A stretch of DNA of 64,000 nt from Lachnospiraceae bacterium AM48-27BH (GTDB lineage: Bacteria > Bacillota > Clostridia > Lachnospirales > Lachnospiraceae), in the NCBI GenBank assembly GCA_003478355.1, contig QUFC01000018.1, positions 3,130-67,129 of the forward strand. Direction: 5' to 3'. This document shows positions 10,657 to 63,681 of this stretch, piece by piece. A program made the position numbers and the translations under genes. The number at the start of each line of letters is the position of its first letter. Position 1 is the first letter of the stretch. The notes below the pieces were generated by a model. It searched no databases, was not told the origin of the DNA, and worked only from the letters and a program-made list of their open reading frames with translations.

Positions 10657-11370
10657 CTATTTTCTGCCTCCGAAGCGTCTCTCTCTGCTATTATACGCCA
10701 CGATTGCTTTTTCTAATTCCTTCTGGTCAAAATCAGGCCACAGACAATCTGTCACATAAAACTCCGCATAGGCAAGCTGCCACAACAGGTAGTTTGACAG
10801 CCTTAATTCGCCGCTGGTGCGAATCATCAGATCCGGGTCCGGAATGCCTGCCGTATCCAGGTATCCGGCAAACAGGCTCTCATCAATGGATGCCACGTCC
10901 TTGTCATTTGCCCGGTAATCCTCTACCAGCTTTCTGGCTGCACGGACAATCTCATCCCTACCACCGTAATTGATAGCGATGACAAACGTCATGCCTGTGT
11001 TGTTCCTCGTTCCTTCTGTCAGGTTGTCGATTCCTTCTATGATATCCGGTGCGAACCGGTATTTGTCTCCGATCATCTTTACGCGGACGTTGTTCTCATT
11101 GGCGATCTTTAACAGACGCACCATATAGTAACGGAACAGCTTCATCAGCGCCCCGACCTCTTCCGCAGAACGTTTCCAGTTTTCTGTGGAAAACCCGTAA
11201 ACAGTAAAATAAGAAATACCCATATCAGCGGCTATGCGGACCATCTTCTCCAGGGTCTCACAGCCGGCTTTGTGTCCCATGGCTCTTGGAACTCCGTGTT
11301 TCTTCGCCCATCTGCCGTTTCCATCCAGGATCACAGCCACGTGCTTCGGTACCGTCATATTCTCCAGCAT
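10657..11370 (-). CDS. uppS: Undecaprenyl diphosphate synthase (cis-prenyltransferase)
   Basis: Makes the C55 lipid carrier used for peptidoglycan and other wall polymers. 237 residues, usual length. The N-terminal catalytic motif VILDGNGRWAKK (Asp ~17) and the C-terminal RTSGELRLSNYLLWQ are both present. GGAGGATAAGCAACT precedes the ATG. The gap to upstream frr is unusually long for this operon (~190 bases) and strongly structured; see the separate entry. Confidence 0.96.
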   Translation of the reverse strand: MLENMTVPKHVAVILDGNGRWAKKHGVPRAMGHKAGCETLEKMVRIAADMGISYFTVYGFSTENWKRSAEEVGALMKLFRYYMVRLLKIANENNVRVKMIGDKYRFAPDIIEGIDNLTEGTRNNTGMTFVIAINYGGRDEIVRAARKLVEDYRANDKDVASIDESLFAGYLDTAGIPDPDLMIRTSGELRLSNYLLWQLAYAEFYVTDCLWPDFDQKELEKAIVAYNSRERRFGGRK

Positions 11371-11454
11371 AGTTGCTTATCCTCCAAACCATTTCGCATT
11401 ACGATTCCCGTGTCTCGCAGTCCCTCACGGAATTTTCGTCCATAACACACATAA

Positions 11455-11560
11455 GGGGGCAGGTGATCGCCCGCCCCCATTGATACCGGGCAGATCCCAA
11501 GATCAAAATCTCCCTGCAGGCAGACCTGCACTGGACTTCTGACCTTTTGACCCTGGTATC
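11455..11560 (-). other. Structured frr-uppS intergenic region
   Basis: Directly after the frr stop there is a nested set of inverted repeats: GATACC (11482-11487) with GGTATC (11555-11560), GATCAAAA (11501-11508) with TTTTGACC (11545-11552), and an inner TGCAGG/CCTGCA hairpin (11515-11530). A second hairpin, GGGGGC with GCCCCC, lies at 11455-11478. The one mismatch in the middle helix becomes a G-U pair only in RNA made from the minus strand, the direction of the operon. No T-run follows, so it is not an evident terminator. It could be an RNA processing or regulatory element, or a dispersed repeat. Confidence 0.45.
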
Positions 11561-11561
11561 G

Positions 11562-12116
11562 TTAAACTGTCATAATCTCTTTTGTTTTCACTTCGACTGC
11601 CTTATCTACTTTCTCGATCATCTTGTCAGTCAGCTTCTGGATCTTCTCCTCTGCCAATTTCTGATCATCCTCAGAGATCTCGCCGCCTTTTTCCATCTTC
11701 TTGAAGGTATCGTTGGCATCACGGCGGATGTTACGGATCGCAACCTTCGCTCCCTCGCCTTTTTTCTTTACGTCTTTGGCAAGTTCTTTTCTGCGTTCCT
11801 CAGTCAGCTCTGGGAATATCAGGCGGATGCAAGTACCATCGTTGGTCGGGTTGATGCCCAGATCAGAGGTTAAGATCGCTTTCTCGATTGCTTTTAACAG
11901 GCTCTTCTCCCATGGCTGGATCACGATCATTCTTGCTTCCGGTACGGAAATGTTACCTACCTGCTGAAGCGGGGTCGGTGTTCCGTAATAATCTACTTTT
12001 AATTTGTCCAGTACGTGTGGATTAGCACGGCCGGCACGGATAGAACCGTACTCATTCTGTAATGCCTCCAGGGACTTGTTCATCTTGTCCTCATAAAAAC
12101 TTAATTTTTCCTGCAT
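11562..12116 (-). CDS. frr: Ribosome recycling factor
   Basis: Splits post-termination ribosomes together with EF-G. 184 residues, standard length, two-domain fold. Recognisable stretches are GSIRAGRANPHVLDKL and VDYYGTPTPLQQV, then a long charged helix (LTEERRKELAKDVKKKGE) and a C-terminal helical tail. AGGAGGAAGCT precedes the ATG. It starts 12 bases after pyrH, the universal pyrH-frr pairing. Confidence 0.97.
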   Translation of the reverse strand: MQEKLSFYEDKMNKSLEALQNEYGSIRAGRANPHVLDKLKVDYYGTPTPLQQVGNISVPEARMIVIQPWEKSLLKAIEKAILTSDLGINPTNDGTCIRLIFPELTEERRKELAKDVKKKGEGAKVAIRNIRRDANDTFKKMEKGGEISEDDQKLAEEKIQKLTDKMIEKVDKAVEVKTKEIMTV

Positions 12117-12128
12117 AGCTTCCTCCTG

Positions 12129-12829
12129 TTATACGGTCACGATGGTGCCGTTAATTTTACCCTGCATCGCGTTGGCAATGCTGTCTTTCTCATTCAGATC
12201 AAATACTGCCATCGGCATCTTATGTTCCATGCACATGATGGAGGCAGTCAGGTCAACGACAGCTAACTGCTTGTCGATCACCTCCTGGATACTGATGGTG
12301 TCGTAACGTTTTGCGTCCGGGTTCACCTTCGGATCGCTGTCATATACGCCGTCAATGGACTTGGCAAGAAGGATACAGTCAGCATCCATCTCTACGGCTC
12401 TTAAGGTGATTCCGGTATCGGTTGAGAAATATGGATGTCCGGTACCTCCTGCGAAGAACACTACCTTACCCTCTTTGAAATACTGATTGGCCAGGTCTTT
12501 GGAAAATAACCTGGTCATGGCACCTACAGCGAATGGGGTTAAGATCTCGGTCTGCATCCCTGCGTTGCGGAAGATCTCAGATACATAGATGCAGTTCATG
12601 ATGGTTGCCAGCATACCAATCTGGTCTGCCTTGGTGCGGTCGATGGCGTTGCTGGTACGTCCTCTCCAGAAATTACCTCCGCCAATGACAATGCCCACCT
12701 CTACGCCTGCGTCTACGGAAATTTTCACCTGACGTGCTACTTCTTTTACAGTATCTTCATCAAAACCGGTTTTTTCGGTCCTGCCAGGGCCTCACCGCTT
12801 AATTTTAATAATACGCGATTCCACTTCAT
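12129..12829 (-). CDS. pyrH: UMP kinase (apparent one-base frameshift)
   Basis: Phosphorylates UMP to UDP; essential in bacteria. The reading frame is broken. An N-terminal piece from the ATG at 12827-12829 (MKWNRVLLKLSGEALAG, with AAGGGAG just upstream) runs out of frame near 12780. From there the second frame continues without interruption from a GFDEDTVKEVARQ-type sequence into VGIVIGGGNFWRG and the C-terminus. Restoring one base in the short C-run around 12779-12781 rejoins a ~234-residue protein of normal length. Because the gene is essential and several other genes here show the same defect, a sequence error is the likeliest cause. First gene of the operon, with its own promoter at 12900-12927. 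Confidence 0.93.
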
Positions 12830-12899
12830 GACTATTCTCCCTTGGGTTCATTTGCAATGCAAAGTCCAGAGCTGATACGACCAGAACTTTGTCTATATC

Positions 12900-12927
12900 A
12901 GTATATCACATTTTCTATAGCTTGCAA
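12900..12927 (-). promoter_or_regulatory. Promoter for the pyrH-to-polC operon
   Basis: On the minus strand TTGCAA (12922-12927) and TATACT (12900-12905) are separated by 16 bases, about 70 bases upstream of the pyrH start. The leader between contains an imperfect hairpin with CAAAGT/ACTTTG ends. This shows that pyrH need not be read through from rpsB-tsf, which are not in the window. Confidence 0.7.
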
Positions 12928-13070
12928 AGTAAAAAAACTCTCCGTTTCCGTTATCCGAATCAGCAGCCTCGAGGTCATACACATGTAAACCTTAGATTTG
13001 TAAAGCGGACATTCGCAATCCACTTCGCTACTTGCTCATGAAAACTAGCGAAAATCTTGGTACCTACTAT

Positions 13071-14582
13071 TCACCGTTTACATTTCTTTCTCAAATACTT
13101 CCTGTTCTTTGTACTGCCAATCGGCTCGATATAATCATCAAGTTGCTTTAGTATTGCTTTGGTTCTTGTCTCCTTCAAATCAAGCAATTCACAAAATTCC
13201 TGCAAACTATACTCTTTGTCAAACTCCATAAAGGCAAGTATTTTATCATACTGTACCTGTGTTTTTTTCGTCACTTTTCTTTCGTCACTTTTTTTCGTCG
13301 CTTTTTTATCGTCGCTTTTTTTCGTCGCTTTTTTATCGCCGCTTTTTTTCTTAAATTCCAAGGTCAAGATGGTTCGATCTGGGTCAAACTTCTCTTCAAT
13401 AACTGGCTCAACCCATCCTTCATCTTCCCAGACATTAAAGATATTTGGCACACCGCTGCCTGCACGTTCACCAATATTAATCAGATTGAACATCTTCATC
13501 AAGGCTTTATTTCTAGGATCCGATTCGCCGCCTTTTCTCATTTGTTCTTTACCAGTACGAATGTATCCTGGATTTTCTAATATCAGCTTATCTGGTTCAT
13601 TCTTAATAACAACTCCACGAACACCATAATAATCTGTGTTGATCAGACAATTTGCCAATGCTTCTCTGAGCGCTTCGTGTACCGGAGTATCATCAATCCG
13701 ATCTCCACCACTGGTTTTAAATGGAACTTTTACGTCTTTTATGATTTTGTTGTAGACTCTAAAATAAAAATCACAAATGTTACCAGACCATTCTCCTGAA
13801 CTGGATTGCAGGCGATCCGTCCATCTTATTGTAGGGTCAAGCATTTCTCTGTAATCCAAAAAATATTCTGGAAAATGTCTCACAATGTTAAACTCATCTC
13901 CAAACATCAACATTCCTGCTGCCGTTGGGTGCAACTGCTTGTCCTCTCGCGATATCGCCGCAGCCCCAATACTACGTAAATATTCTGCATCATCCAATCT
14001 TTCAAATGGATGACCTGCTTTTAATGTTCTATGTCTGTTTCTATATCCCTGTATCGTTTCTGCATTTAGCTCTGTCAATTCCGCATCATCCAGAATTTCC
14101 ATATCCATAGTATTCTCTGTCTGATCACGTAGCATTGCCTTAACCTGCAGTCTTGTACATTTGTAATCACCTGCATTTGATCTACGGAAAGTCTGATTAA
14201 ACATATTATTATTGATGTATACTGGTTTCTCACTTCGTTTCGCCATAGGAACAGTAATAACAATAATAATATCTTCGCCTACATCATAAGTTTGTACATC
14301 AGATTCTGTAAGAAGATTTATATTCACCTTATTGCGATTATGCAGTAAATTCCACAGGTCATCCAAAAGTTTCTCTTTATCCTTGAGTTTTAATCCTGTT
14401 GTCCTCCAATGTTTATCATCCAATTCTTTCACTCCAAGAATGATAACGCCACCATAGGTATTAGCATATGCGGAATATGTCTCCCACATATCATTAGGGA
14501 GTCCACCATTTGCTCTCTTTACCTCACGTCTGTTATCTTCCTTGTATGAATCAAATTGTGATATGTCAAAAAAATTATCCAA
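13071..14582 (-). CDS. AlbA_2 / Schlafen-type ATP-binding protein
   Basis: 503 residues starting at a TTG (AGGTGAT seven bases upstream). The N-terminal ~130 residues form an AlbA_2 domain (EVKRANGGLPND, then AYANTYGGVIILGVKE). The middle matches the HATPase_c_4 domain (EALREALANCLINTDYYG, LINIGERAGSGVPNIF). After that comes a Lys-rich linker of three 9-residue repeats (KKSxDKKAT type, ~420-450) and a short C-terminal winged helix. Proteins of this family (often labelled divergent AAA_4 or RecG-like) bind nucleic acid or regulate transcription, and many sit in defence islands. It lies 95 bases after the DUF1998 helicase on the same strand with no evident terminator between, so it probably belongs to that operon. 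Visibly AT-rich, unlike pyrH next door. Confidence 0.85.
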   Translation of the reverse strand: MDNFFDISQFDSYKEDNRREVKRANGGLPNDMWETYSAYANTYGGVIILGVKELDDKHWRTTGLKLKDKEKLLDDLWNLLHNRNKVNINLLTESDVQTYDVGEDIIIVITVPMAKRSEKPVYINNNMFNQTFRRSNAGDYKCTRLQVKAMLRDQTENTMDMEILDDAELTELNAETIQGYRNRHRTLKAGHPFERLDDAEYLRSIGAAAISREDKQLHPTAAGMLMFGDEFNIVRHFPEYFLDYREMLDPTIRWTDRLQSSSGEWSGNICDFYFRVYNKIIKDVKVPFKTSGGDRIDDTPVHEALREALANCLINTDYYGVRGVVIKNEPDKLILENPGYIRTGKEQMRKGGESDPRNKALMKMFNLINIGERAGSGVPNIFNVWEDEGWVEPVIEEKFDPDRTILTLEFKKKSGDKKATKKSDDKKATKKSDERKVTKKTQVQYDKILAFMEFDKEYSLQEFCELLDLKETRTKAILKQLDDYIEPIGSTKNRKYLRKKCKR

Positions 14583-14677
14583 TATCTATCACCTCAATCT
14601 GGTCAATTTTTTTATTGTTACTCAAGTTTTTACTTCAATACGTTTCGGCCCAATACGAGCTGAAATACAACTACATA

Positions 14678-17600
14678 TCAAGGTCTAACACCCATTTGTC
14701 TCAATAGCCCTTCAATGAAATCACGAGCGTATTTACGTTTCAACTTGCTGTGATTTGCCTGATTGTAATAATTTCTAAGGCAGTTATAGCAAGAAGTATT
14801 TTCATCGCAACACTGTTGCGACACTTTAGTGTACGCTGCTCTCAGAGATATAATTACAGCATTCTTTTCAACTAATCTCTTAACATGACCCGCTCCTCCT
14901 GGAACATTGTCATAGATCAAAATATCATAGCTATGCAGCTCAAGATTCAGTTCAAGCACACCATCTATGTCATTTCTCTCAATCCCAAGTCCAATACTTA
15001 TTCCTTCAAGAAATGCATACATGAATGACAACGCAATCGCATAATCTTCCTTCGTAAAGGATCCTAACATAGGAATAGTAAATCGAGCTACATCTGTTTG
15101 GAATCTATGTCCAAGCTTAATTTGAGTAAGTTCTTCACAAGAGCAATCAAATTGCCTGTAATTCTTGTGTTTCTTTAATAATGTAGGTGTAATTACTTTT
15201 CCCTTTATTATGTCGCTATATCCACATACTGGACACATATTGAATGATGATTTATTCATGACAAGGAGCTCGTCATTGGTGCTTGTCTCAATGATAATAG
15301 CATTTGATAAAGAAACAACATTCTCATCCTTTATACCACCACCAAGATATGATACTTCACCAGCATATGATCTCTTTGGCTTCGCACGAGTACTTTCTTT
15401 CGTGATACCAGTTTTAAATCCGTTTACTGGTTCAATATAAAATTCTTGTACCACTGTACCAAGAGGTTCTCCACAATACTTGCACTCATTTCCCGTTCTT
15501 GTACTTACAGATACATTTATCTTCTTACAGTTAGGACAGGTGCAGAAATAATTTCGTGGATATTCTCCTGTTTTAGGTAAAGTTATATATTTAGAAGTAT
15601 ACTTCTTACCATCAACAATAATTTCCGAATCCGGTGCATATTCTGATATCGCTATTTTTAAATCGCGACTCAAATCATAACTATTATCCAGAATACCTTC
15701 TTTATATATTTGCAATTCAACAACATCAATCGGGAACCCATATTTAGGAATAACGCAGTATTTTGAAAGTGCGTCAATTACCTTTTCCTTATGCAGATTC
15801 TCAATTTGTCTCTGATAATAATCAGCTTCTTTATAGTTTTCTTCTGTTACAGCTTCCTTTTTCGCCTTCTCATACTCTTCTGCAATGGATTTAATTGTTG
15901 ATACAAAATGCTCCATCTTTTCATCATTGCCTTCGATTTCATCAAACCATTTAAAGTTGTGATAATCTCGATATACATCCCCAGGGAGTATTTTCTCGTT
16001 AATATAGATATTCAAATCACTCGGATGACTTGAAATATAGCATTTAAACTCCTCTAATGCATTTCCAAAGACTAATTCATCAATACTGCTGAAATAATCT
16101 GGGTGTAATCTAAAGAAGAATCCTAAGCATGTAGCCATCAAATGACGAACGATTATCTTATGATTTACTACATTAAAATATGGTGGCTTAATGACACCAG
16201 AAATCATTTTTTCTGGACTACAGAAATATGTATAATCATGAGATCCTGTCCCACAGTATGTCAGAATGTATGCTGCACTATCTTTTCTTCTTCCTGCACG
16301 TCCTGCACGCTGAACATAATTCGCAGGTGATGGTGGTACATTTCGCATAAATACTGTTTCAAGGTTACCAATATCAATACCCATCTCAAAAGTTGTTGAA
16401 CAACTTAAGATATTGATTTTTTTATTTTTAAAGTCTTGCTGATATTGCTTTGCCTTCTTTCGATCAAGCTGAGCAGTATGTTCCTTAACAACAATTCTTT
16501 CGATTTTCTTTGTTTTATATTGTCTTCTGTAATAATTCGTTGCAAGTGCCTCATCCGGATCTACTTCACTCAATGTGCCATCACATTTATCCTGAACACA
16601 CTTATTATGGACATTATATGGTGTCAAACGACCACACTTAGAGCAAATATAGTATTTTGAGGTCTTATAATTCTTAGCTACATACTTACTTGCTTCAATT
16701 TGATAGCATTCCTTAGTTTCATGCTTCTTAAACAATTCACCCGCAACGGCCAAGTTGTTAAAAACAACCTCCAATAATGATTTTGCTGATTCTTCGTCAC
16801 AGTCACAAACTTTCTGAACATAACGAACAACCATATTATCCTTTCCCTTTACAGGTAAGAAACTTCTAACACCATTTATTGTCTTAGGGCAATTAAACAT
16901 TACGTAGTTATCAAATCTCCTATATTCCAAAGCTTCCATCTTTTCATCTGGAGTTAAGGTTGATTTGATAGAATTTATAGCAGGTGCCACCTTAAACACT
17001 CCGAATACGACCTGCATAATTGTTTCCAGATCTTTCTTTGTAATATTATATTGTCCAAATTCAGCTTCTACGTCCTCTTCGTCAATCTGAGACATAATAT
17101 CACTTAGATCAACGTCAAAGAAATATAATCCTAAGCCTTCACTGTCATTCGAACCATCGACCTTTAACAAATCAACAAGTGTTGTAATCCAAGCATTTTT
17201 ATGAGCACTTAAATCATTTTGAAATAAGTTACCTTCTTTAATCATTCCTGAAAGTGTCGCAGTAAGCTGATCTACAGAGATATTTCTATATTGATTATCT
17301 TCTATTACCTTCCAGATCAGTCTTTTTTGTAGCATTCTAACTTGGTTAGAATCCAAGAAAGCTGCTGAAAAGCTAGCTTGTTGGCGGCTATCAGAAAATG
17401 CTAAAAATTGTTTGACATTTGATGTTTTTGCTTCTGATTCTGATTGAACAGTTTCTTTTTTCTTTAAGGAAAGTTTACCGATCTTCTTTTTGACTTCTGT
17501 TCCATCATCGATTGCTTCGTACAAGATCTGAGCAAGTAATGCGGTTCCTTCGTCTTTACCAACATTTAAGCTTTTAACGACACCAGCTCTTGATTTATGG

Positions 17601-19369
17601 CCACAGCAAGGACATTGATTAATATTATTGAACGCTGTTTCTTCTCCATCCTTCTTTGATTGAAGAACTTTATAAATAGAATGCTGAAAGTTATCTCCAC
17701 AATTACAGCTTCGTGCATTTAAATTTCTCGCAGCGTGAATCGCACCACACCTTGCGCAAACTTTATATTCTTCAAGTATATCGTGGTCAACTTCCTCATC
17801 ATTTAATTCATTGCTCATCAAGAAGTAATCAATGCTTACAAATTCGTTATTTCCATAGTTTTCGTAAATATCAACTTCCTTGTTCTGATAGAGATAGTCA
17901 AGCCCATCACCTTCATTACGCTGAATCTTTCCGATTATGTATAGTGAATTACAATATCTACAGTTTCCTGCTTCGAAAGCCTTTAAATCACCAAGCATAT
18001 TAGTTTTAATAAGGCTTAATTGTGGATTGTTTCCAAGAGTGATGTATGCACCAGCTAATGGGCGCACAAAAGAATGGTATTTCAGATCAAAAATACCTAT
18101 CCCGTCTTTTTCTGCCATATTGATGAGATCAATCAAATCTATCAACTGTTCAGACGTTATTTGATTATTGAAGCTAGCAAGTATACTTTTGAAACTCTTA
18201 CTACCATTTTTTAATACTTCATAAAGATGGAACACGTTTCTGTCTCCTACAAACAATTCATATAGGTACCTCTTCAAGTCCGTTGAATCTACGTTTTTGT
18301 ATCTATTTCCAATGGTTCTAACCGTCTGTATGTCAAGCTTCGCTTTCTTTATCTTGGAATAATCTTCTCCAGCAATTGTATAACTTAGATTCGAACTAGA
18401 AAGTACAATTCTTTTAGAAAAAATTATGTCTTGAATATCAAAACTTGCAGAAGTAAGGCTTCTAGCAAAATTTACTATTTCGCTTTCAGATTTGCCTTGT
18501 TCCCCCAGCGTAGCACTTGTTAGAATAAAGCGTGGTTTCTTCGGCGCTAACCCCGTTAATCTACGCATCAACAAAGATAATTCGATTCCCAATGAGCCAT
18601 AATACGAATGTGCCTCATCAAGAACAACAAACTTCCAGTTATTTAACCTCTCCGGAGCAAAAATCGAATAGTCATTTGGTCTGATCAGTAAGTATTCCAA
18701 CATAGAATAATTCGTGAACAATAAATGTGGTGGATTCTTTCTAATTTCTTCTCTCGAAACCAATTCATTCTCAGGAATAAATGTGTCGTTCTCTGCGCCA
18801 TATTTCTCACGATAGTTCTTTGGAACGCTTTCTTTCGTTTCCCCTGTGAAGAATCCATATGTAATTTCAGGACATTGTGTGAGTATTTTTCTTACACGAT
18901 CAATCTGATCGTTTACAAGAGCGTTCATTGGATATAAGAATACTGCCCTAACACCAACTTCCCTATTACCGTCTTCTACATCAGACATTAATTCATTTAA
19001 GATTGGATATAAAAAACTCTCTGTCTTTCCTGAACCAGTACCTGTTGTAATAATTGCGCTTCGGCCAGAGCAAATACGCCTAATACTCTCTTCCTGATGA
19101 GAATATAAAGGCCTCTCAAAATTCATATCTCCCAATCTACGAAATGATTTACATACTGCACCATCTGCAATCATTTCATCCAAGGACATTCCTCTTTTAA
19201 ATGGCAAATTCAAATCGACATAAGGTCCCTTAAATAAATCTTCAACTTCCAATTGTTGCTCAAACAATTTTTGTAACTTTAGAGTTTTAAATTCAAAAGA
19301 AGACCTAAGATATTCTTTATACTGACTTTTTATGTATTGAGATCGTTCAATAGGATTCCTCTTGCTCAC
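14678..19369 (-). CDS. Large DEAH-box helicase with DUF1998-type C-terminus
   Basis: 1563 residues. Lobe 1: Walker A TGTGSGKTESF (~110), DEAH in VVLDEAHSYYG (~249), LTSATLGE (~284). Lobe 2 starts near FLAFSDSRQQAS (~660), and its motif VI is QRAGRAGRR (~1023). Between and within the lobes are Cys clusters (CRYC ~473, CARCG and CNCG ~550, CPCCGHK ~585, CSKCG ~908), more at ~1280-1300 (CPNCK ... CKYCG), and a DUF1998/MrfA-like end (YDNVPGGAGH, then CYNCLRNYYNQ ~1520). Known relatives are DruE of Druantia and the DrmA+DrmB pair of DISARM; smaller MrfA does DNA repair. The start overlaps the stop of the upstream gene by four bases, so the two are translationally coupled. The best reading is a DNA-translocating defence helicase; its target is unknown. 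Confidence 0.88.
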   Translation of the reverse strand: MSKRNPIERSQYIKSQYKEYLRSSFEFKTLKLQKLFEQQLEVEDLFKGPYVDLNLPFKRGMSLDEMIADGAVCKSFRRLGDMNFERPLYSHQEESIRRICSGRSAIITTGTGSGKTESFLYPILNELMSDVEDGNREVGVRAVFLYPMNALVNDQIDRVRKILTQCPEITYGFFTGETKESVPKNYREKYGAENDTFIPENELVSREEIRKNPPHLLFTNYSMLEYLLIRPNDYSIFAPERLNNWKFVVLDEAHSYYGSLGIELSLLMRRLTGLAPKKPRFILTSATLGEQGKSESEIVNFARSLTSASFDIQDIIFSKRIVLSSSNLSYTIAGEDYSKIKKAKLDIQTVRTIGNRYKNVDSTDLKRYLYELFVGDRNVFHLYEVLKNGSKSFKSILASFNNQITSEQLIDLIDLINMAEKDGIGIFDLKYHSFVRPLAGAYITLGNNPQLSLIKTNMLGDLKAFEAGNCRYCNSLYIIGKIQRNEGDGLDYLYQNKEVDIYENYGNNEFVSIDYFLMSNELNDEEVDHDILEEYKVCARCGAIHAARNLNARSCNCGDNFQHSIYKVLQSKKDGEETAFNNINQCPCCGHKSRAGVVKSLNVGKDEGTALLAQILYEAIDDGTEVKKKIGKLSLKKKETVQSESEAKTSNVKQFLAFSDSRQQASFSAAFLDSNQVRMLQKRLIWKVIEDNQYRNISVDQLTATLSGMIKEGNLFQNDLSAHKNAWITTLVDLLKVDGSNDSEGLGLYFFDVDLSDIMSQIDEEDVEAEFGQYNITKKDLETIMQVVFGVFKVAPAINSIKSTLTPDEKMEALEYRRFDNYVMFNCPKTINGVRSFLPVKGKDNMVVRYVQKVCDCDEESAKSLLEVVFNNLAVAGELFKKHETKECYQIEASKYVAKNYKTSKYYICSKCGRLTPYNVHNKCVQDKCDGTLSEVDPDEALATNYYRRQYKTKKIERIVVKEHTAQLDRKKAKQYQQDFKNKKINILSCSTTFEMGIDIGNLETVFMRNVPPSPANYVQRAGRAGRRKDSAAYILTYCGTGSHDYTYFCSPEKMISGVIKPPYFNVVNHKIIVRHLMATCLGFFFRLHPDYFSSIDELVFGNALEEFKCYISSHPSDLNIYINEKILPGDVYRDYHNFKWFDEIEGNDEKMEHFVSTIKSIAEEYEKAKKEAVTEENYKEADYYQRQIENLHKEKVIDALSKYCVIPKYGFPIDVVELQIYKEGILDNSYDLSRDLKIAISEYAPDSEIIVDGKKYTSKYITLPKTGEYPRNYFCTCPNCKKINVSVSTRTGNECKYCGEPLGTVVQEFYIEPVNGFKTGITKESTRAKPKRSYAGEVSYLGGGIKDENVVSLSNAIIIETSTNDELLVMNKSSFNMCPVCGYSDIIKGKVITPTLLKKHKNYRQFDCSCEELTQIKLGHRFQTDVARFTIPMLGSFTKEDYAIALSFMYAFLEGISIGLGIERNDIDGVLELNLELHSYDILIYDNVPGGAGHVKRLVEKNAVIISLRAAYTKVSQQCCDENTSCYNCLRNYYNQANHSKLKRKYARDFIEGLLRQMGVRP

Positions 19370-22300
19370 ACTGATTCAACTCCCTTCATATCGATATTGT
19401 AAGAAAAGATATCAACAGCTTTGCCATCGTCCATCGAATTCATAATTCCATGATGATCGAAATCAAGCAGCAACCCATCTCCATCCTTAGTAATAGACAG
19501 TTCTATCATTCCATCTATAACATCACTGCAAATCTCAATATCAACGGGATTTATGTTATCCAACATAAACGCAGCATTGTATGTTCTTGCATATACTTCA
19601 CCTATATATTCATTTCCACTTATCATTTCTTTAAAATAAACATACGTTGTATTGAAGTAATGTTTTTTTCTTAGGAACTCTCCTCTGACAAATTGATCAA
19701 AGTAGACCTCCTTGATTTTGAAGGATTTTCCTACGAAATCTTCTCTCGCATAAAAGACGATTGGAAATTCCTTTAAAACACGTTCTTTTTTGAGTGATAG
19801 TCCTCTCTCTTTCTCAAAGAAAATCACTTTATAGTTTATAAAAGACGATAAGTCATATACATTCTCCTGAATTTCTTTTTCCAAAGCAGAACTTGTATAT
19901 ACGACATTATCCTCATCATCAATTATCTTAAACCTAATATTCCCTTGTCCGAAAAAGCACGGCGTAACAACAAGAGCTTTGTCTTCATGACTATAAATAA
20001 CCGTTGTTTTAGCTTCATCTAGAATACATTTGTTGTAACACCAGATTCCCTCATGAAGGTGTTCTTCTGCAACCAACACTATTCCCACGCAATCATAATT
20101 CGACTTATATGACAGTAAGAAGCCTGCAGAGAATCTGCTAAATACTCCTTCATTCTTAAGCCCAGGTGCGTCTTCAATAATTTGACCGGCACTGGTTAGT
20201 AAGCATATTTTGTCATATTTGCATCCATACAGATCAATTGAACTTTCCTGAGTAATATCACCGATCCAAATTTCTTGTGAAAATGGTCTCCAATCTCCAT
20301 TATCAATCCTGTATAACGGGAATTGGAATGGAACATAATAAATATATTCCTGATTATTCCAATTTAACTTAATCCAGTCTTCTCTAAAATCCTGAACACA
20401 TATCTCATCAAAAATTGGTTGTGACATCAAATCAGAATCCACAGAAACAATATATGAATTCTTGTTATTTTCAACCTGCTCAACATGAAGGTTTTTATCT
20501 ATAGCAAATTGAGTACGTAACACACTGATTCTTTTGCCAGAATGTAACGCATTCACTCTTAGCTGATAAATTCCTGAATCTAAACAATCAAGTTTTAGCG
20601 AATACTTATTGACCCCTTTTCTCTCAACTGTAGAATATTCAAAAGCATCCATTTTATATGAGCGCTGGTTAATTTGGATTTCAAAACTGCTGTCCGTAAA
20701 CTCACTTTCAAAAACAAGAAATACCTCATCTTTAAATACTTCAAACTTGCAATCAGCCTGCGCAACGAAATATCCATCATATTTTTCACCAAACACACCA
20801 GGACGGATCATCTCAGAAAAATTGAAAACTTTATCATCGACAAGAACAGCATCTCCCAAATGTGCATTATATGAAGATAGACAATATGACTCTCCCGAAA
20901 AATACAAATGTAGCTTATCAACCTTACTCTTCGTACAGAAAACAGTTGTTCCGGAATAGTCTTTATTATTTGCCTGTTCCTGCCCTCTCTCATCAAATAC
21001 TATGAAGTTACGATGCAATCTGGTTTTGCTCTCATAAATCACTTCATTTCCTGCTACCAACTGATAAACAATTCTTCCAAGTGGATTAGAAAGTTCAATT
21101 GCAGGATTCTTAATCTGATACCCACCAATGATTTCACGGATATCTTCTACATAATCATCATAAATGACCTTTTCCTTATTCTTAACAATGATTCTGATAT
21201 TTCGATAATCATATGTAGCTTTCACGCGATGAATCGGAGGAACTAAATAAATTGTGGTTCCATTCAAAACGAATTCCGGTTCCCAGCGCGATCTCAGATG
21301 GTCTGATTTAGTGCAATGACCATGCTCTTTCTCTCTATTTATTGTTGAGAGCCACTCTTCATATCCCCTTTTTAAATATGGATTATAAAGCGTACTGTCC
21401 TTGCCCCAAATATATTTGTCAATCAGTCTAACGACAATAATACTAAGTTTAATAACTGCATCGTTATATACAGGATTGGTAATTAACTGTTTTGTTGATT
21501 TAATCAACTTATATGTTTTCTTTGTTACATTTACTTGAAGTTCATCACTTTCAGAACGCATTACATTCTGCAAGCCGTCATAAACAAACTGAAACTCGTC
21601 ATATAGATTATCCGGTAAATCGCTATCAAAATTCAGCTTATATATGTCATAGATAAATTCAAAAAATGGCCCAAGATAATAGCTTGGTACAATAGAGCCC
21701 GCTAGTACCACATTGATAATACGAGTCTTTATTCCTGTTGACTCATCCTTTGTTCGGTAGTTATTTAATAATGTTCGAATAAGCCCTTCTACCTTTTGTT
21801 CCGAATAGTGCTGATACAAGCTCTTATAAGTTTTTCTAACTGATTCATAAAATGAACCATCATAATAAAGCATACCAATCAAAACAAGAGACACAAATAC
21901 AATTTCAGGATCATGCACATAAGTTCCAGAATATGAATTTAGAGTAATGCCTAATTCCCTCTCTGCACGACTGTGAATAATATTTATCGCATCAACATTA
22001 TCCAAAAGATCAATTAAATCAATTCCGAGATTTTTCCTTTCTTTGACGCAATTTCTCAAGTATTCTATTTTGGTTTCTACCTGAGTATCGTTTATTCTCT
22101 TTTTTAACATATCAAGAAGAGCCTCTTGCTCTTCTTTGGTCACGACACCATCTTCAAGTATCTGGTCGATTTTTTCACAAATAACTTTAGAAGGCTTATG
22201 ATCGCGAATAAATGATTCATTAGATATCATCCATTCCTGTAAGCGGTGCACTTCTTTTTTATTGATTTCATCATCACAAATAATACCTTCAATGATACCA

Positions 22301-22569
22301 TTAAGCTGATAAATCTTCGCAAAAGAATCATTTTCAAGAGCTATATATTGACTGCAATTATCTATAAGGATTTCTCGTTCTTCGTCTGTAATAATTCCAT
22401 CTTCAAGGACTTGTTCTACCAGAGAAATTAAGCGAGCTTGCTTAGGTTCGTAAGATAAGGTTCTATTCTTTTTTATCCATAAAGATAATCTTGCTATCTC
22501 TAGCGCATTGATAATACCGTCGTAACTAACGCCATTTATAATTCCTATTAACTCATTTATGTTACGCAT
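19366..22569 (-). CDS. TerB-like repeat protein, helicase partner (DruH-like candidate)
   Basis: 1067 residues, no recognised enzyme motif. Residues ~6-73 and ~87-154 are an internal duplication: each copy has L-x-GII-x-G, a W near the middle, KP/EPK, and ends in LEDG(I/V)(I/V)TxEE, as in TerB-like acidic helical domains. The middle is alpha-helical. From ~480 on it is rich in short beta strands and reads like several beta-sandwich modules, with no signal peptide or membrane segment. It ends inside the start of the DEAH helicase (4-base overlap). Size and order match the two-gene Druantia III layout (DruH then DruE), and the TerB part recalls SngA of Shango. Both comparisons rest on architecture only. 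The ATG lacks a strong ribosome site; a TAA lies in frame eight codons upstream. Confidence 0.72.
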   Translation of the reverse strand: MRNINELIGIINGVSYDGIINALEIARLSLWIKKNRTLSYEPKQARLISLVEQVLEDGIITDEEREILIDNCSQYIALENDSFAKIYQLNGIIEGIICDDEINKKEVHRLQEWMISNESFIRDHKPSKVICEKIDQILEDGVVTKEEQEALLDMLKKRINDTQVETKIEYLRNCVKERKNLGIDLIDLLDNVDAINIIHSRAERELGITLNSYSGTYVHDPEIVFVSLVLIGMLYYDGSFYESVRKTYKSLYQHYSEQKVEGLIRTLLNNYRTKDESTGIKTRIINVVLAGSIVPSYYLGPFFEFIYDIYKLNFDSDLPDNLYDEFQFVYDGLQNVMRSESDELQVNVTKKTYKLIKSTKQLITNPVYNDAVIKLSIIVVRLIDKYIWGKDSTLYNPYLKRGYEEWLSTINREKEHGHCTKSDHLRSRWEPEFVLNGTTIYLVPPIHRVKATYDYRNIRIIVKNKEKVIYDDYVEDIREIIGGYQIKNPAIELSNPLGRIVYQLVAGNEVIYESKTRLHRNFIVFDERGQEQANNKDYSGTTVFCTKSKVDKLHLYFSGESYCLSSYNAHLGDAVLVDDKVFNFSEMIRPGVFGEKYDGYFVAQADCKFEVFKDEVFLVFESEFTDSSFEIQINQRSYKMDAFEYSTVERKGVNKYSLKLDCLDSGIYQLRVNALHSGKRISVLRTQFAIDKNLHVEQVENNKNSYIVSVDSDLMSQPIFDEICVQDFREDWIKLNWNNQEYIYYVPFQFPLYRIDNGDWRPFSQEIWIGDITQESSIDLYGCKYDKICLLTSAGQIIEDAPGLKNEGVFSRFSAGFLLSYKSNYDCVGIVLVAEEHLHEGIWCYNKCILDEAKTTVIYSHEDKALVVTPCFFGQGNIRFKIIDDEDNVVYTSSALEKEIQENVYDLSSFINYKVIFFEKERGLSLKKERVLKEFPIVFYAREDFVGKSFKIKEVYFDQFVRGEFLRKKHYFNTTYVYFKEMISGNEYIGEVYARTYNAAFMLDNINPVDIEICSDVIDGMIELSITKDGDGLLLDFDHHGIMNSMDDGKAVDIFSYNIDMKGVESV

Positions 22570-22579
22570 CTTCTGCTTG

Positions 22580-22606
22580 TGTGGTATCTTTTTTTAAGCT
22601 ACCACA
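22580..22606 (-). promoter_or_regulatory. Hairpin in the leader of the TerB-repeat gene
   Basis: Seven-base inverted repeat TGTGGTA (22580-22586) / TACCACA (22600-22606) ends about ten bases before the TerB-repeat ATG. The only strong ribosome site here (AAAGGAGAG) lies upstream of the hairpin, four bases before a GTG that opens a three-codon frame (GTG GTA GCT TAA). This suggests control of translation, for example reinitiation, but could be chance. Confidence 0.35.
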
Positions 22607-22712
22607 TCTCTCCTTTCGTCTGGTGTAGGTAATTGTATGACATGAACATAGATAGTCTTCTGGACAGTCCTCTGCAAGCCATATCTATAATACAAAATAA
22701 GATGTCCTTTTA

Positions 22713-22940
22713 TCAGGACTCGTTTGTGATTGTTAGCTTTTCTCCATTTTCAAGAATATATGATTGTTCAAACACCACACCCAATACATCGGCAATTTGC
22801 ATAAGTTCTTCTGTACTCACTGTCTCTCGCTTTAATTTTTTGTTGAAATTCTGCGGTGTCTGACCTATTCTACGTGCTAACTCAGCAACGCTAATACCTT
22901 TTTCTTTACATAATTTTTTAATTAAATTTGATGTGTTCAT
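22713..22940 (-). CDS. XRE-family HTH regulator of the island
   Basis: Small Cro/C1-type DNA-binding protein, 75 residues from the ATG at 22938-22940. This start is preferred over one nine codons upstream because GAAGGTGAGAGT lies just before it. The helix-turn-helix is ISVAELARRIGQTPQNFNKKL, with a second helix pair after it (STEELMQIADVLGV). The tail VFEQSYILENGEKL is short and carries no sensor domain. It is first in line before the TerB-repeat and helicase genes (143-base gap). Its promoter contains a perfect palindrome between the -35 and -10, so autorepression, and repression of the downstream genes if they share the transcript, is likely. Confidence 0.88.
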   Translation of the reverse strand: MNTSNLIKKLCKEKGISVAELARRIGQTPQNFNKKLKRETVSTEELMQIADVLGVVFEQSYILENGEKLTITNES

Positions 22941-22994
22941 ACTCTCACCTTCTATTTTGAAACTCATACATTGAGAAGATATTAATCAAAATAT

Positions 22995-23023
22995 ATTATA
23001 AACCATATGGTTGATATTTTCAA
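22995..23023 (-). promoter_or_regulatory. Island promoter with palindromic operator
   Basis: On the minus strand TTGAAA (23018-23023) and TATAAT (22995-23000) are 17 bases apart. The spacer holds the perfect 12-base palindrome AACCATATGGTT at 23001-23012, touching the -10 box. A regulator bound there would block polymerase. The adjacent XRE gene is the obvious candidate. Confidence 0.75.
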
Positions 23024-23060
23024 CATGCATCTTTTTGAATTTGCATATTACATAAGCAAA

Positions 23061-23086
23061 ACAGCAGAGCGATAAAAAACTGCTGT
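23061..23086 (-). terminator. Possible terminator upstream of the island promoter
   Basis: ACAGCAG (23061-23067) and CTGCTGT (23080-23086) form a 7-bp stem. On the minus strand it is followed by TTTTGCTT. It would stop transcription from upstream before the XRE promoter. The T-run is weak. Confidence 0.4.
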
Positions 23087-23249
23087 AAAATTCTACTTAT
23101 TAGCTTGAAGTTTCTATACTAATTTATTATCAAAACACACCTAGATTATATAAATGCATAAATGGGTTCTCTTTTCAACTTATCTACCCATATTCTTATC
23201 CTCTCTTCCTCTCTCCTTCTGACTTTCCGCATAAATCCTATCATTCTCG

Positions 23250-23490
23250 TCATACAGTTTCAAATTCCTTCTGAATCCCCATGTCTTCAAGTACCTTGCG
23301 ATATATGGTCATCCCCACACTATAATCAACCTCTTCAAAGTTGAATACCCTTGCAAAGCATCTCCGGTGCACTGCTTAGGATTTACTTCTTTGTCATTTC
23401 TAAAAGTCGGAACAGGTTCAGTTGCATTTTAACTTCCTTGTCTATAAACAACTGCTTCTCATAAGTTACCTGCGTATAATGGAAAATGAT
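23250..23490 (-). pseudogene. Gene remnants at the island edge
   Basis: Two short minus-strand stretches look like decayed coding sequence. The first has no start and ends at 23383, with readable text TYEKQLFIDKEVKMQLNLF before its stop. The second (23250-23372) reads FNFEEVDYSVGMTIYRKVL and ends MGIQKEFETV. The 5' part is cut off exactly at the cysK terminator. The family is not recognised. The rest of the interval 22941-23554 holds only the promoter and terminators listed here and AT-rich sequence. It looks like a scar from an insertion or deletion beside the island. Confidence 0.35.
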
Positions 23491-23493
23491 GCT

Positions 23494-23534
23494 AAAAAAA
23501 GCTACCCACCCCTTTTACCCGGCGAATAGCTTTT
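23494..23534 (-). terminator. cysK terminator
   Basis: AAGCTA (23499-23504 on plus) and TAGCTT (23527-23532) form the stem, with a 7-base T-run on the minus strand directly after it, about 20 bases past the cysK stop. Confidence 0.7.
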
Positions 23535-23554
23535 CTGATGATTTTTATCGTGTA

Positions 23555-24495
23555 TTATGCCTCACTGTTAAATAATGGAGTTGACAAATAGCGGTCTCCA
23601 GAATCTGGAAGCAGCACTACAATCACTTTTCCTTTATTTTCTGGTCTCTTCGCCAGAATGGAGGCTGCTTTTAAGGCTGCGCCGGAGGAAATTCCTACTA
23701 AGATTCCCTCGGATGCTGCAAAAGCGCGTCCTTCTGTGAAGGCATCCTCGTTCTCGATGGCAATGACCTCATCGTAAACTCTGGTATTTAAAACCTCCGG
23801 TACGAAACCGGCTCCGATCCCCTGGATCTTGTGCGGGCCTGCGGTTCCCTTGGATAAAACCGGACTGGAAACTGGCTCTACGGCTACGACTTTGATATCC
23901 GGATTCTTGGATTTTAAATATTCGCCAACGCCTGTGATGGTTCCGCCTGTGCCGACGCCTGCAACAAAGATGTCTACTTTTCCATCGGTCTGATCCAGAT
24001 CTCCGGACCTGTGGTGCTGCGGTGGGCAGCCGGGTTGGCTGGGTTGATGAACTGGCCTAATACGACAGCGCCTGGAATCTCATTTTTCAGCTCTTCTGCT
24101 TTGGCGATGGCGCCCTTCATGCCTTTGGCTCCCTCAGTCAGAACCAGCTCTGCGCCGTATGCTTTTAGCAGGTTTCTGCGCTCCACACTCATGGTATCCG
24201 GCAGTGTAAAGATCGCACGGTATCCCTTGGCTGCAGCTACGGCTGCAAGTCCGATTCCGGTATTTCCGCTGGTTGGCTCGATGATCGTAGCTCCTGGTTT
24301 TAAGATGCCTTTTTCTTCTGCATCCTCGATCATGGATAATGCAACACGATCCTTCACAGAACCGGCCGGATTCAGATATTCCAGCTTTGCTAAAATCACG
24401 GCGTCCGTGACTCCGGCTTTCTTTGCATATCCATTCAGTTTCATGACCGGAGTTCCTCCGATCAGCTCCAGTGCGCTCTCTTTGATCTTACTCAT
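23555..24495 (-). CDS. cysK: Cysteine synthase (O-acetylserine sulfhydrylase), apparent frameshift
   Basis: PLP enzyme joining O-acetylserine and sulfide to make cysteine. The N-terminal frame has the PLP lysine in [10 protein letters not shown] and the phosphate loop [10 protein letters not shown]. It runs to GPEIW near 23995 and then leaves frame. The other frame continues at once ([17 protein letters not shown], then [11 protein letters not shown], then [15 protein letters not shown]) to the stop at 23555-23557. One missing base in a G-run of the coding strand explains it and restores a ~312-residue full-length enzyme. GGAGGG precedes the ATG. It lies 60 bases after the malY gene and probably shares its transcript, forming a cysteine/methionine interconversion cluster. 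Likely a sequencing or assembly error rather than a real pseudogene. Confidence 0.92.
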
Positions 24496-24557: not shown

Positions 24558-25744
24558 CTATGCCCTCTCTTCCAGCGCCTTGCGTATCCGCTCAAGCGCT
24601 TCGGTCAATGTCGCTCTCGGGCAGGCTACATTGATCCGCTGGAAGCCTTTGCCTTTCTCTCCGAAGATCTTGCCACTGTCTAACCATAGCTTTGCTTTAT
24701 GGATGATCAGATCCTCCAGCTCTTCGACACCAAGCCCGGTTCCACGGAAATCCAGCCACACCAGATAGGTTCCCTCATGCTCAGTCATGGAAACACCAGA
24801 AAGATACTGCTCCACATACTCTTTTGTATATTCAATATTGGCAGCCACATAAGCTTCATGGCTTCATACCACTCTTCTCCGTCAGAATATGCTGCCTCAC
24901 AGCCAACCAGACCTGCCACATTCAACTGACTGTATCCGGCCCGGTTGATCTCCTGTCTGAAGGTCTCGCGGATCTGTGGATTGGAAATGAAGATGTTGGA
25001 GATCTGAAGTCCCGCCAGGTTAAAGGTCTTACTTGGGGAGGTGCAGGTGATGGTAAAATCCGCAAATTCTTTGGAAATCGCCGCAAACACCTGATGTTTT
25101 CCTTTAAATACGAAATCCGCATGGATCTCATCGCTGACAACTTTCACCTGATATTTCTGGCAGATCTCACCCATTCTGGTCAGTTCTTCCCTGGTCCATA
25201 CTCTGGCTACCGGATTGTGAGGATTACACAGGAAGAATAATTTCACCCGCTCATCCCGGATCTTCTGCTCAAAATCCTCGAAATCAATGTGGTAGCGGTT
25301 GTCCTCTCCTGCGTACAGATCGCTGCTGACGATCTTTCTGCCATTGTCTGAGATCACCTCAGAGAATGGATAATACACCGGCTGCTGAATCAGCACCGCA
25401 TCGCCCGGTTCTGTAAATGCACGCACTGCCATGGCAAGGGCAAATACGATACCAGGCGTCTTCACCAGCCAGTCCTCTTCCACGTCCCAGTCATGGTGAC
25501 GTTTCATCCAGCTTCTGACGATCTCAAAATAAGGAGTCAGCGTGTCGCTGTAACCAAAAATGCCATGTTCTACCTGTTTTGCCAAAGCATCCTGGACGTA
25601 ACTGGAGGTCTTAAAGTCCATGTCTGCCACCCACAGAGGAAGCAGGTCTTTCGGCATTCCCCGTTTCTCAGCAAAATCATATTTTAAAGATTTGGTATTT
25701 CTTCTGTCTACGATCCGGTCAAAATCAAGATTTCTTTCCGCCAT
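24558..25744 (-). CDS. MalY/PatB-type cystathionine beta-lyase, apparent frameshift
   Basis: PLP class I/II aminotransferase-fold lyase that cleaves cystathionine (and often cysteine) to homocysteine or sulfide plus pyruvate. The N-terminal part shows LPLWVADMDFKTSSYV, NPHNPVARVW and the PLP-lysine motif TSPSKTFNLAGLQ. It ends EEWYEAMK near 24854, where the frame is lost. The remaining ~95 residues (AANIEYTKEYV to ALEERA) follow in another frame. Restoring one base (GG in the coding strand) gives a ~395-residue protein of normal length. It overlaps the end of the MetB/MetC-like gene by 20 bases, so the two are an operon. A role in methionine synthesis is inferred from the neighbours. Confidence 0.87.
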
Positions 25745-26939: not shown

Positions 26940-26968
26940 ATACTAACACCATAGGAATAGTATGTCAA
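26940..26968 (-). promoter_or_regulatory. Promoter of the sulfur amino acid operon, with inverted repeat
   Basis: On the minus strand TTGACA (26963-26968) and TAGTAT (26940-26945) are 17 bases apart. Between them lies an inverted repeat, CATACTA (26939-26945) with TAGTATG (26958-26964), enclosing ATTCCTAT. A cysteine-responsive repressor of the Rrf2/CymR kind would fit the context; that is inference. Confidence 0.7.
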
Positions 26969-28401: not shown

Positions 28402-28490
28402 GTGACCACCTCCATGATTAAGTTTTGCCAACAATAAGAACATTATCTCTTATTGTTTACCACGAGAAAAGAAAACATCTTTATCATTTT

Positions 28491-62800: not shown

Positions 62801-63681
62801 TCCGGAAGCTCTGCCTCCTCTCCCAGTGAATATTCCTCCGGCAGAACCGGTGTGTAGACATAGGCACTGCCGTTGTAGTCCTGGTTTGCCTCATGATAGC
62901 CTGCCCAGGTCTTATAGGAGGTTTCAATGGGTTCTCCATCCTCGTCAAATTCTTCAAAATAATCCTGCGGGGAGATCCCGCCGTGAAATTCCGGATAGTC
63001 GCTCTCACCAATATCCAGCTTCCAGATCACGCCGGAGATCCTTCTGATATCCTCTTCTGCATCCGTCTCCGAGCTTTCTTTTTCGGTGTCAGTTTCCGCA
63101 TCTATCTGCAGTTCGCCTTCTGCTTTTGGAGCATCCTCTAAAGTTTCCTGCTTCATCCGAACCTCCAGAGTATCCGGAAGGATGATATCACTTTCTTTGG
63201 CACCCAGAGAGAGCTTCTGCACCGCAATAGCCTCATCCAGCCCCAAGAACGCTTCTATCTCTGCTTTTATCTCTGCTCCTGTTGTTGTGCCGTTTGGTGC
63301 TCCGGTTATTCCGGCCTCGGTTCCTGTTATTGCTCCGTTTGCCCCTGCCTCTGCACCTGTCTCATCTTCATTTGCTTCCGGCGGCATCGTTGTCCCACTG
63401 CCGGGTAAAACGCCAGTATCAGACTCGTCGCTGTCATTTTTTACTTCTGCATTCGATGGAGAAGCATTCGACGGAGAAGCTTTTAATACAGATTTTTTTA
63501 ATAACGTTTCTTTTGATGACGTTTCTTTTTCTGCTGTTTCCGCAGTATCATCTGCTCCCGTTTCATCCTCGATCCGCTGCTGCGAACCGGCCGCCAATGC
63601 CTGTGGCTGCCATCCGCATGTATTCCATATTAATATAGCTGCCAATGCGGCTGCTAAAATTTTTTTCGATTTCTTTCTCAT
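56870..63681 (-). CDS. Giant secreted cell-surface protein, apparent frameshift
   Basis: About 2270 residues if the break near 61785 (one base missing in a GGG run of the coding strand) is repaired; ESKIEPGENVPTG is followed in the other frame by FRIAAYDNQLPEGTYTADIS. Signal peptide at the N-terminus (ILAAALAAILIWNTCGW). It continues with Glu/Thr-rich low complexity, then two blocks of beta-helix-like repeats of the form GAGIGxG...IKGGTV (~390-620 and ~1050-1250). Ig-like and MBG/YDG-type modules follow (PYNGNTDIALEATVEIG, GEKTYGDDSFSLTGV), then a KPGETE repeat linker. The C-terminal choline/cell-wall-binding repeats (GGWFYIDPEHGMHTGWVLLN, GAWYYFNPVSDG) anchor it to the wall. Likely an adhesin or polymer-binding protein; the ligand is unknown. 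Monocistronic. Confidence 0.82.
57455..57546 (-). repeat. 18-bp tandem repeat coding the KPGETE linker
   Basis: About five 18-base units (plus-strand core GTTTCGCCCGGCTTTTCC) encode KPGETE/KPGETG repeats before the wall-binding domain. A stalk-like spacer prone to copy-number change. Confidence 0.85.

Follow-up and report, generated by a model that had tools for sequence, protein, structure and literature searches.

The 64,000-nt window analysed here, that is, the whole stretch of DNA, carries a block of four genes on its minus strand at 13071..23023. We read this block, with good confidence, as a Druantia III-like anti-phage module of two genes that was acquired horizontally and comes with its own promoter and an XRE-type regulator. 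The module consists of a large protein of 1067 amino acids (aa), named P3 here, and a DruE-family helicase in which no nuclease is recognised. Its anti-phage function is predicted by analogy. A preliminary description had proposed a related or new anti-phage system of four genes. The proposal is partly borne out: the DruE-family helicase and the Druantia III-like pairing stand, and the AlbA_2 and XRE genes drop out as conserved parts.

19366..22569, minus strand: P3, 1067 aa, putative infection sensor in the DruH position, core component 1 (homologues and synteny)
14678..19369, minus strand: DruE-family YprA-type DEAH helicase, 1563 aa, core component 2 (PADLOC and Pfam)

A conserved two-gene unit

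Six relatives were read together with their surroundings: L001, L044, L002, L045, L066 and the phage record L018 (PV036439), where L-numbers denote fetched homologous loci. In all six, a helicase 63-95% identical to that of the window lies directly 3' of the P3 homologue. The two reading frames overlap by 4 bases in the window, and the same overlap is found in five of the six relatives, L002 being uncertain on account of its uncertain start codon. Judged by sequence, the conserved unit is two genes, P3 and the DruE-type helicase. Two other fetched loci, L056 and L057, hold no upstream partner.

The idea of a conserved four-gene defence system was rejected, as the AlbA_2 and XRE genes are not kept with the pair. 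An AlbA_2 relative occurs in none of the six P3-helicase loci, within the 3.6-6 kb downstream examined, and in none of 14 further DruE-like helicase loci, within the stretches examined. The XRE gene has a copy (92% identical) in L001 only, which makes one of six P3 relatives and none of the 14 further loci. A survey of gene order in other genomes thus recovers the pair in 6/6 relatives and not the order of four.

13071..14582, minus strand: SLFN_AlbA_2 plus HATPase_c_4 protein, a neighbour and not a conserved component (Pfam; absence in relatives)

A genuine four-gene system, with AlbA_2 as an added effector or regulator, would fit the position of this gene on the same strand, 95 bases 3' of the helicase without a listed terminator-like site in the interval, and inside the AT-rich block. 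This reading is nonetheless highly unlikely given the absences described above. Furthermore, no AlbA_2 relative was found at E<=1e-40 in 10 genomes, including the five P3-bearing cellular genomes; as a positive control for this search, 14 of 120 genomes of one family gave relatives at E<=1e-80. The homology shared with L001 and L044 ends before AlbA_2, and the family is very abundant (at least 4239 relatives at E<=0.001, against at least 398 for P3), with a second SLFN_AlbA_2 plus HATPase_c_4 gene in the window itself at 26965-28443. The AlbA_2 gene therefore appears to be an adjacent, independent gene. Its earlier label of AlbA_2 ATPase holds for the AlbA_2 and HATPase_c_4 domains recognised by Pfam; "ATPase" is a domain label only. 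The second AlbA_2 gene sits in another AT-rich dip (0.39 GC at 27-28 kb).

A DruE-type helicase without a recognised nuclease

DruE tops the 42 PADLOC families matched by the helicase, with 593 bits for DruE1 (E 3.9e-178), 542 bits for DruE3 (E 9.2e-163) and 391 bits for DruE2. Together with the zinc-binding domain, this confirms the proposed DUF1998-type helicase related to DruE. The solved helicase 9tu7, deposited as "DEAD/DEAH box helicase" and read here as DruE because the nearby entry 9tud is named DruH, matches with 273 bits. Pfam recognises DEAD, Helicase_C and MZB domains, the SF2 motifs are intact, and eight CxxC motifs are present.

19022..19042, minus strand: Walker A motif GTGSGKT, residues 110-116 (sequence)
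18608..18628, minus strand: DEAH box VVLDEAH, residues 248-254 (sequence)
16289..16312, minus strand: motif VI QRAGRAGR, residues 1020-1027 (sequence)
14777..15022, minus strand: MZB (MrfA Zn-binding, DUF1998-type) domain, residues 1450-1531 (Pfam, 43.9 bits against a cut-off of 24.2)

A C-terminal PLD nuclease was not recognised by Pfam. Since the last MZB CxxC starts only 37 residues before the C-terminus, the pair of PLD domains that passages of two papers (PMC13192584; PMC12458937) describe for the DruE of Druantia III is missing here, and a PLD nuclease on this helicase was rejected for want of a Pfam PLD match and for its short post-MZB tail. The protein has 1563 aa in the window against 2115 aa in the L062 control.

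A 19-sequence helicase tree unites the window and the six relatives in one group of seven with full support. Outside the clostridial set, and on long branches of which the tool warns, the DruE3 control is joined to a Chryseobacterium (Bacteroidota) sequence. The helicase set comprised 23 of 120 listed sequences plus two controls; the tree omits L051, L055, L056, L057, L058 and L059, where the helicase is broken, split or cut, and keeps L053 despite its truncation by a contig end.

The MZB/DUF1998 domain and SF2 core are shared with MrfA, and the YprA structure 6znp matches the window helicase with 68 bits, as would be expected if the operon served DNA repair, like MrfAB/YprA, and not defence. 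The matches to the DruE models and to 9tu7 are far stronger, the genes adjacent to the helicase match other families, and both the patchy distribution of P3 (full-length in 3/397 family genomes) and its phage-borne copy speak against repair. We consider a repair operon very improbable.

Architecture and distribution of P3

P3 has no Pfam match at E<=0.1. Scoring of 7995 candidates gave it at least 398 relatives at E<=0.001. Its full-length form occurs in three of 397 species-level genomes of one family (any match in seven) and in one of 391 genomes of the class, which is also among those of the family (any match in 10); in the order of a second genome, two of 295 genomes carry it at E<=1e-30. 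The alignment used below contains 42 of 120 listed relatives plus the query.

22360..22560, minus strand: N-terminal repeat 1, residues 4-70 (hhalign against repeat 2)
22111..22314, minus strand: N-terminal repeat 2, residues 86-153 (hhalign against repeat 1)
21280..22074, minus strand: helical domain, residues 166-430, the best conserved part of P3
19369..21279, minus strand: mainly-beta Ig/FN3-like array, residues 431-1067 (DSSP of the model; Ig/FN3 matches)

The AlphaFold2 model (43 sequences; mean pLDDT 83.2, pTM 0.51) is mainly helical to about residue 414 and mainly stranded after it by DSSP, and its strand part matches many Ig/FN3 arrays. Across the 43 sequences, mean pairwise identity is 60% in residues 166-430, 37-40% in residues 591-845 and 54% in residues 942-1067; the most divergent stretch, 591-845, thus falls within the beta array. 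The helical domain is largely common to the partners of other clostridial DruE-like helicases by profile match and is a candidate helicase-contact domain, while the modelled Ig/FN3-like array is a candidate ligand-recognition region. In all six relatives P3 is less identical to its window counterpart than the helicase is (e.g. 45 vs 68%, 36 vs 65%). This divergence, like that of DruH relative to DruE in passages of PMC13192584, supports a sensor role.

The preliminary description had called the N-terminus of P3 a TerB repeat. The tandem repeat is genuine, its two copies being 40% identical (hhalign E 6.7e-21), and phrog_3989 matches residues 3-161 with E 1.5e-34. As to the TerB label, Pfam gives no TerB match at E<=0.1, and the fold comparison, made with a weak model, gave no structural match. 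NCBIfam returned only a sub-cut-off YmfL match at residues 40-89 (22.6 bits against a cut-off of 90). The repeat is absent from the phage copy L018, whose alignment starts at profile position 158. The helical tandem repeat also opens other, shorter clostridial proteins and is present in Vibrio phage proteins, some of them annotated as BRCT; examples are L014, L019-L024 and orf2 of Vibrio phage K139.

Relationship of P3 to DruH

In the comparison of the two large proteins with DruH and DruE, the helicase thus matched DruE and P3 no DruH model. Two DruH controls each match 11 DruH3 models in PADLOC, and nine partners of other clostridial DruE-like helicases matched no DruH model either. A profile of six such partners aligned with DruH over an N-terminal stretch only (prob 7.9%, E 0.0043). 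With the N-terminal domains alone, the alignment covered 115 collinear columns (prob 4.9%, E 0.0081) and scored 24.6, against at most 20.9 for 21 reversed or block-shuffled controls. These alignments are suggestive, although not proof, of remote homology between the N-termini of P3-type partners and DruH.

The clostridial partners resemble each other far more clearly. The alignment of P3 with the six partners spans 791 columns, starting at residue 208 and reaching almost to the C-terminus (prob 99.7%, E 2.9e-27). A 15-sequence set contained 12 upstream proteins that do not belong to the P3 subfamily; the P3 profile finds eight of these at E<=0.0022, four of them with fewer than 20 bits, and misses L052, L054, L058 and L059. 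In a 14-sequence set, the six-partner profile finds L050, L066, L049, L052, L058, L054 and a cyanobacterial plasmid protein at E<=7e-5, and matches neither DruH control. This cross-matching indicates that one partner family accompanies most of these DruE-like helicases.

Several results weigh against a Druantia III-like module. P3 matches no PADLOC family at E<=0.01, hence no DruH, and its full-length profile aligns with that of DruH at a probability of only 0.2%. DruH is absent from the best 50 Foldseek matches listed for P3, in a copy of the database whose inclusion of 9tud is unsure. The model of P3 is mainly beta where DruH has a C-terminal helical region; the Ig/FN3 matches are of a common, unspecific kind, and the pTM is just 0.51. 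No nuclease is recognised in the pair, and the killing step is conjectural. Additionally, the P3 gene of L044 (G187, 10707-13943), 91% identical to that of the window, looks broken by an in-frame TAG at about residue 112; maintenance of the module is thus not universal.

Canonical Druantia type III, with a DruH that has diverged beyond the models, would account for the order of partner and DruE, for the similar sizes, for the helical and Ig-like parts and for the weak, collinear N-terminal alignments. We regard it as unlikely, given the failed full-length profile match, a P3 model without the C-terminal helical region, a helicase without the PLD nuclease tail, and a tree, its long branches subject to the tool's warning, in which the DruE3 control and a Bacteroidota sequence stand apart from the clostridial set.

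Mobility, neighbourhoods and a possible DruE class

A copy of the pair lies inside Ruminococcus phage NatCom_28274 (L018, PV036439.1 13730-21153), between endolysin and DNA-replication genes, where both proteins are annotated merely as hypothetical. This copy would also suit a cassette serving phage lifestyle or competition between mobile genetic elements, in the manner of superinfection exclusion, instead of host defence. Such a role is improbable here: the five other relatives are on bacterial genome contigs and the window copy is beside housekeeping genes, a comparison made without regard to prophage content. Scans of viral contigs with P3, the P3 alignment, the helicase and AlbA_2 found no relatives, within the limits of their search patterns. 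A plasmid search with P3 led nowhere.

Some related loci have defence genes as neighbours. Beside L045 are a WYL regulator and a restriction gene of the GmrSD type. L048 has a WYL regulator beside it and, 3' of the DruE-like helicase at 264-2492, SIR2-STALD and TIR genes; in L055 the region 3' of the helicase (11809-12986) holds a ThsB_TIR gene and a SIR2-like fragment 48% identical to that of L048 over 122 aa. By their sequences, the SIR2/TIR genes at these two loci are Thoeris-type.

An SF1-helicase gene related to NERD-domain proteins follows the DruE-like gene in five of the 20 fetched loci, and not in the window:

L045, 15380-17233: SF1-helicase gene
L066, 3045-4775: SF1-helicase gene
L046, 8739-10508: SF1-helicase gene
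L051, 4156-5880: SF1-helicase gene
L058, 4906-6516: SF1-helicase gene

The Pfam NERD domain is present in the genes of L045, L046 and L066 and was found neither in that of L051 (E<=0.001) nor in the shortened frame of L058. A homologous C-terminal tail of about 100-140 residues is carried by the helicases of L045, L066, L046, L050, L051 and L054. Among helicases with intact C-termini, a NERD-type gene follows four of six tailed and none of nine untailed ones, in rows that are not independent of each other.

These patterns allow a more far-reaching reading, which we put forward tentatively and hold to be somewhat less probable than not. The clostridial DruE partners may make up a single family, without a name so far and different from DruH, and mark out a DruE class of their own with exchangeable ends around a sensor-motor core. 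The partner would then swap N-terminal modules, the tandem repeat being present or absent; the tailed helicase would often be joined by a NERD-nuclease/SF1-helicase gene that provides cleavage in trans; and in loci with neither the tail nor the NERD gene, such as that of the window, the core would work without a dedicated nuclease.

Module edges, promoter and regulator

The DNA of the window and L001 is clearly alignable from about the promoter through XRE and P3, and in L044 the homology sets in roughly 60-65 bases ahead of P3. At the other end, the three sequences agree almost completely as far as the stop codon of the helicase and part beyond that point. These edges indicate that the transferred unit is promoter-XRE-P3-helicase or P3-helicase, with AlbA_2 outside.

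22995..23023, minus strand: promoter-like site TTGAAA-17-TATAAT (11/12 matches, best in the region)
23001..23012, no strand assigned: 12-bp perfect palindrome AACCATATGGTT in the promoter spacer (sequence)
22713..22967, minus strand: XRE-type regulator (Pfam HTH_26, 53 bits)
22581..22605, minus strand: short hairpin GTGGTA...TACCAC directly upstream of P3 (sequence)

For the strong regulated promoter proposed earlier the evidence is divided. The site ranks first among 50 promoter-like matches in 12600-24000, and L001 keeps its -35 element, the start of the spacer and the -10 element, clear upstream homology beginning about there; however, the total of 50 is near the 44.4 expected by chance. 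The promoter would drive XRE and, beyond it, probably the module. The half-sites AACC/GGTT of the palindrome are kept in L001, where the middle differs, and the palindrome is a candidate operator for the XRE protein. Translation of XRE probably begins at 22940, where a ribosome-binding-like AAGGTGAG precedes the start, and the product would then have 75 aa. With a copy in one of six P3 relatives and none of the 14 other loci, XRE looks like a local regulator. The leader before P3 (22581-22640), which contains the hairpin, is alignable in the window, L001 and L044; in the latter two, an AAGGAG-like site precedes a GTG start, which in L044 shares the frame of P3.

Locus anatomy and flanks

The open reading frames of the block, at 22713-22967 (84 aa), 19366-22569 (1067 aa), 14678-19369 (1563 aa) and 13071-14582 (503 aa), are separated by gaps of 143, -4 and 95 bases. 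In these respects the preliminary description was accurate, as it was for the domain labels that Pfam recovers (HTH_26 for XRE, SLFN_AlbA_2, DEAD, Helicase_C and the MZB/DUF1998-type zinc domain), for the AT-rich composition and for the placement between a housekeeping operon and cysK. The GC content of the block (13 to 23 kb) is 0.33-0.39, while that of the flanks (the 12 kb below the block and the 3 kb above 24 kb) is mostly 0.47-0.53, and we infer that the block was acquired horizontally. It is flanked by frr and pyrH on one side and by cysK and a PatB-type lyase gene on the other.

The homology of the five nearest relatives to the window, chosen by pyrH-frr DNA (77-79%), stops at the start of pyrH, and by open reading frames the genes further upstream vary in all five. 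By this comparison the site upstream of pyrH is a variable spot. An empty insertion site was not found among these relatives, nor any cysK-like DNA within 10-12 kb around their pyrH.

Read by eye, pyrH (~12129-12829), cysK (23556-24495) and the PatB-type lyase gene (24558-25744) appear frame-broken. Indels in the assembly are the likely explanation, given that pyrH is an essential gene as a rule. All four genes of the block are unbroken open reading frames. Elsewhere in the window, at 56870-63681, two overlapping minus-strand genes unrelated to the module encode a protein of 1595 aa with beta-helix repeats and a YDG domain and one of 675 aa without a Pfam match at E<=1e-5.

Proposed mechanism and significance

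The mechanism that we propose for the Druantia III-like module draws on reports, in passages of PMC13192584, that DruH has Ig-like domains, shows positive selection and is a proposed sensor of phage structural proteins, that DruH is less conserved than DruE, that DruE is a 3'-tail-loading helicase, and that DruH, which has a C-terminal helical region, forms dimers that cleave. In mycobacterial Druantia III, passages of PMC13316683 report that both proteins are needed and that a minor tail protein activates the system.

By analogy, P3 would be the infection sensor. Its Ig/FN3-like arm may recognise something made by the phage, probably one of the structural or tail proteins, as DruH is reported to do, and the conserved helical part of P3 may contact or license the helicase. 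The helicase would then load on 3' single-stranded intermediates of phage replication or recombination and translocate. Since it carries no recognised nuclease, it would stop the phage from replicating in two ways: it would unwind or occupy the DNA, and it would lay the DNA open to nucleases of the host or of neighbouring genes. As none is recognised in the pair, any cleavage would come from elsewhere or from P3 (compare the DruH dimers). The XRE protein may repress the promoter until infection.

Druantia III is only now being explained, and two mechanism papers, in the passages available, rest on an E. coli and a mycobacterial system, both of which have DruH. A clostridial class with another partner and a bare helicase would probe which parts of Druantia III are essential: the phage-recognising receptor arm, the 3'-loading helicase and the need for a nuclease. 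Such loci are probably under-called, because the PADLOC models (version 2.0.0, 2023) report the helicase and not the partner. The helicase is the less novel of the two, since the Bell et al. preprint mentions nuclease-less Druantia III-like helicases; the same does not hold for the partner. Beyond the papers cited, the open-access literature yielded neither a description of a P3-type partner nor any connection of AlbA_2 or NERD with Druantia, which is not proof of absence.

Comparison with known systems

Shango systems (SngA-SngC) contain TerB. The block shares a helicase core with them, and the repeat of P3 had been called TerB-like. The analogy with Shango finds little support: membership was rejected because the SngC match (107 bits) is confined to the core and a DruE3 control gives a match of the same kind (93 bits), and no Sng model in PADLOC was matched by the other three block genes. 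The proposed kinship with DISARM (DrmA/DrmB) was likewise not upheld, as the DrmA match (58 bits) is confined to helicase-core stretches, and membership was rejected. ARMADA and DISARM have a YprA-type helicase core with DUF1998 in common with the block; in contrast, their PglX-like methyltransferase and second (BrxHII-like) helicase were not recognised among the four genes.

Druantia IV (DruE-DruF-DruL) resembles the window in combining DruE with a hypothetical protein, according to passages of PMC8565338. The DruA-D, DruM/F/G and DruF/L models of Druantia I, II and IV are, however, unmatched by the other three block genes, and among the four genes PADLOC matches a Druantia model to the helicase only. 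The "Druantia Type III-like" YprA branch of Bell et al. 2025 resembles the window in that its members mostly have no nuclease domain (passages of PMC12458937); the words DruH and Schlafen do not occur in the main text of that paper, and its passages do not describe the partner.

Druantia III itself differs from the module in that P3 matches no DruH model, has an N-terminal tandem repeat and a mainly-beta C-terminus, and is paired with a helicase without a recognised PLD nuclease. The likeness between the two lies in their organisation: two genes, with a large partner upstream of a DruE-family YprA helicase in the window and in 6/6 relatives; a helical and Ig-like partner that is more divergent than the helicase; and settings in defence islands and mobile genetic elements.

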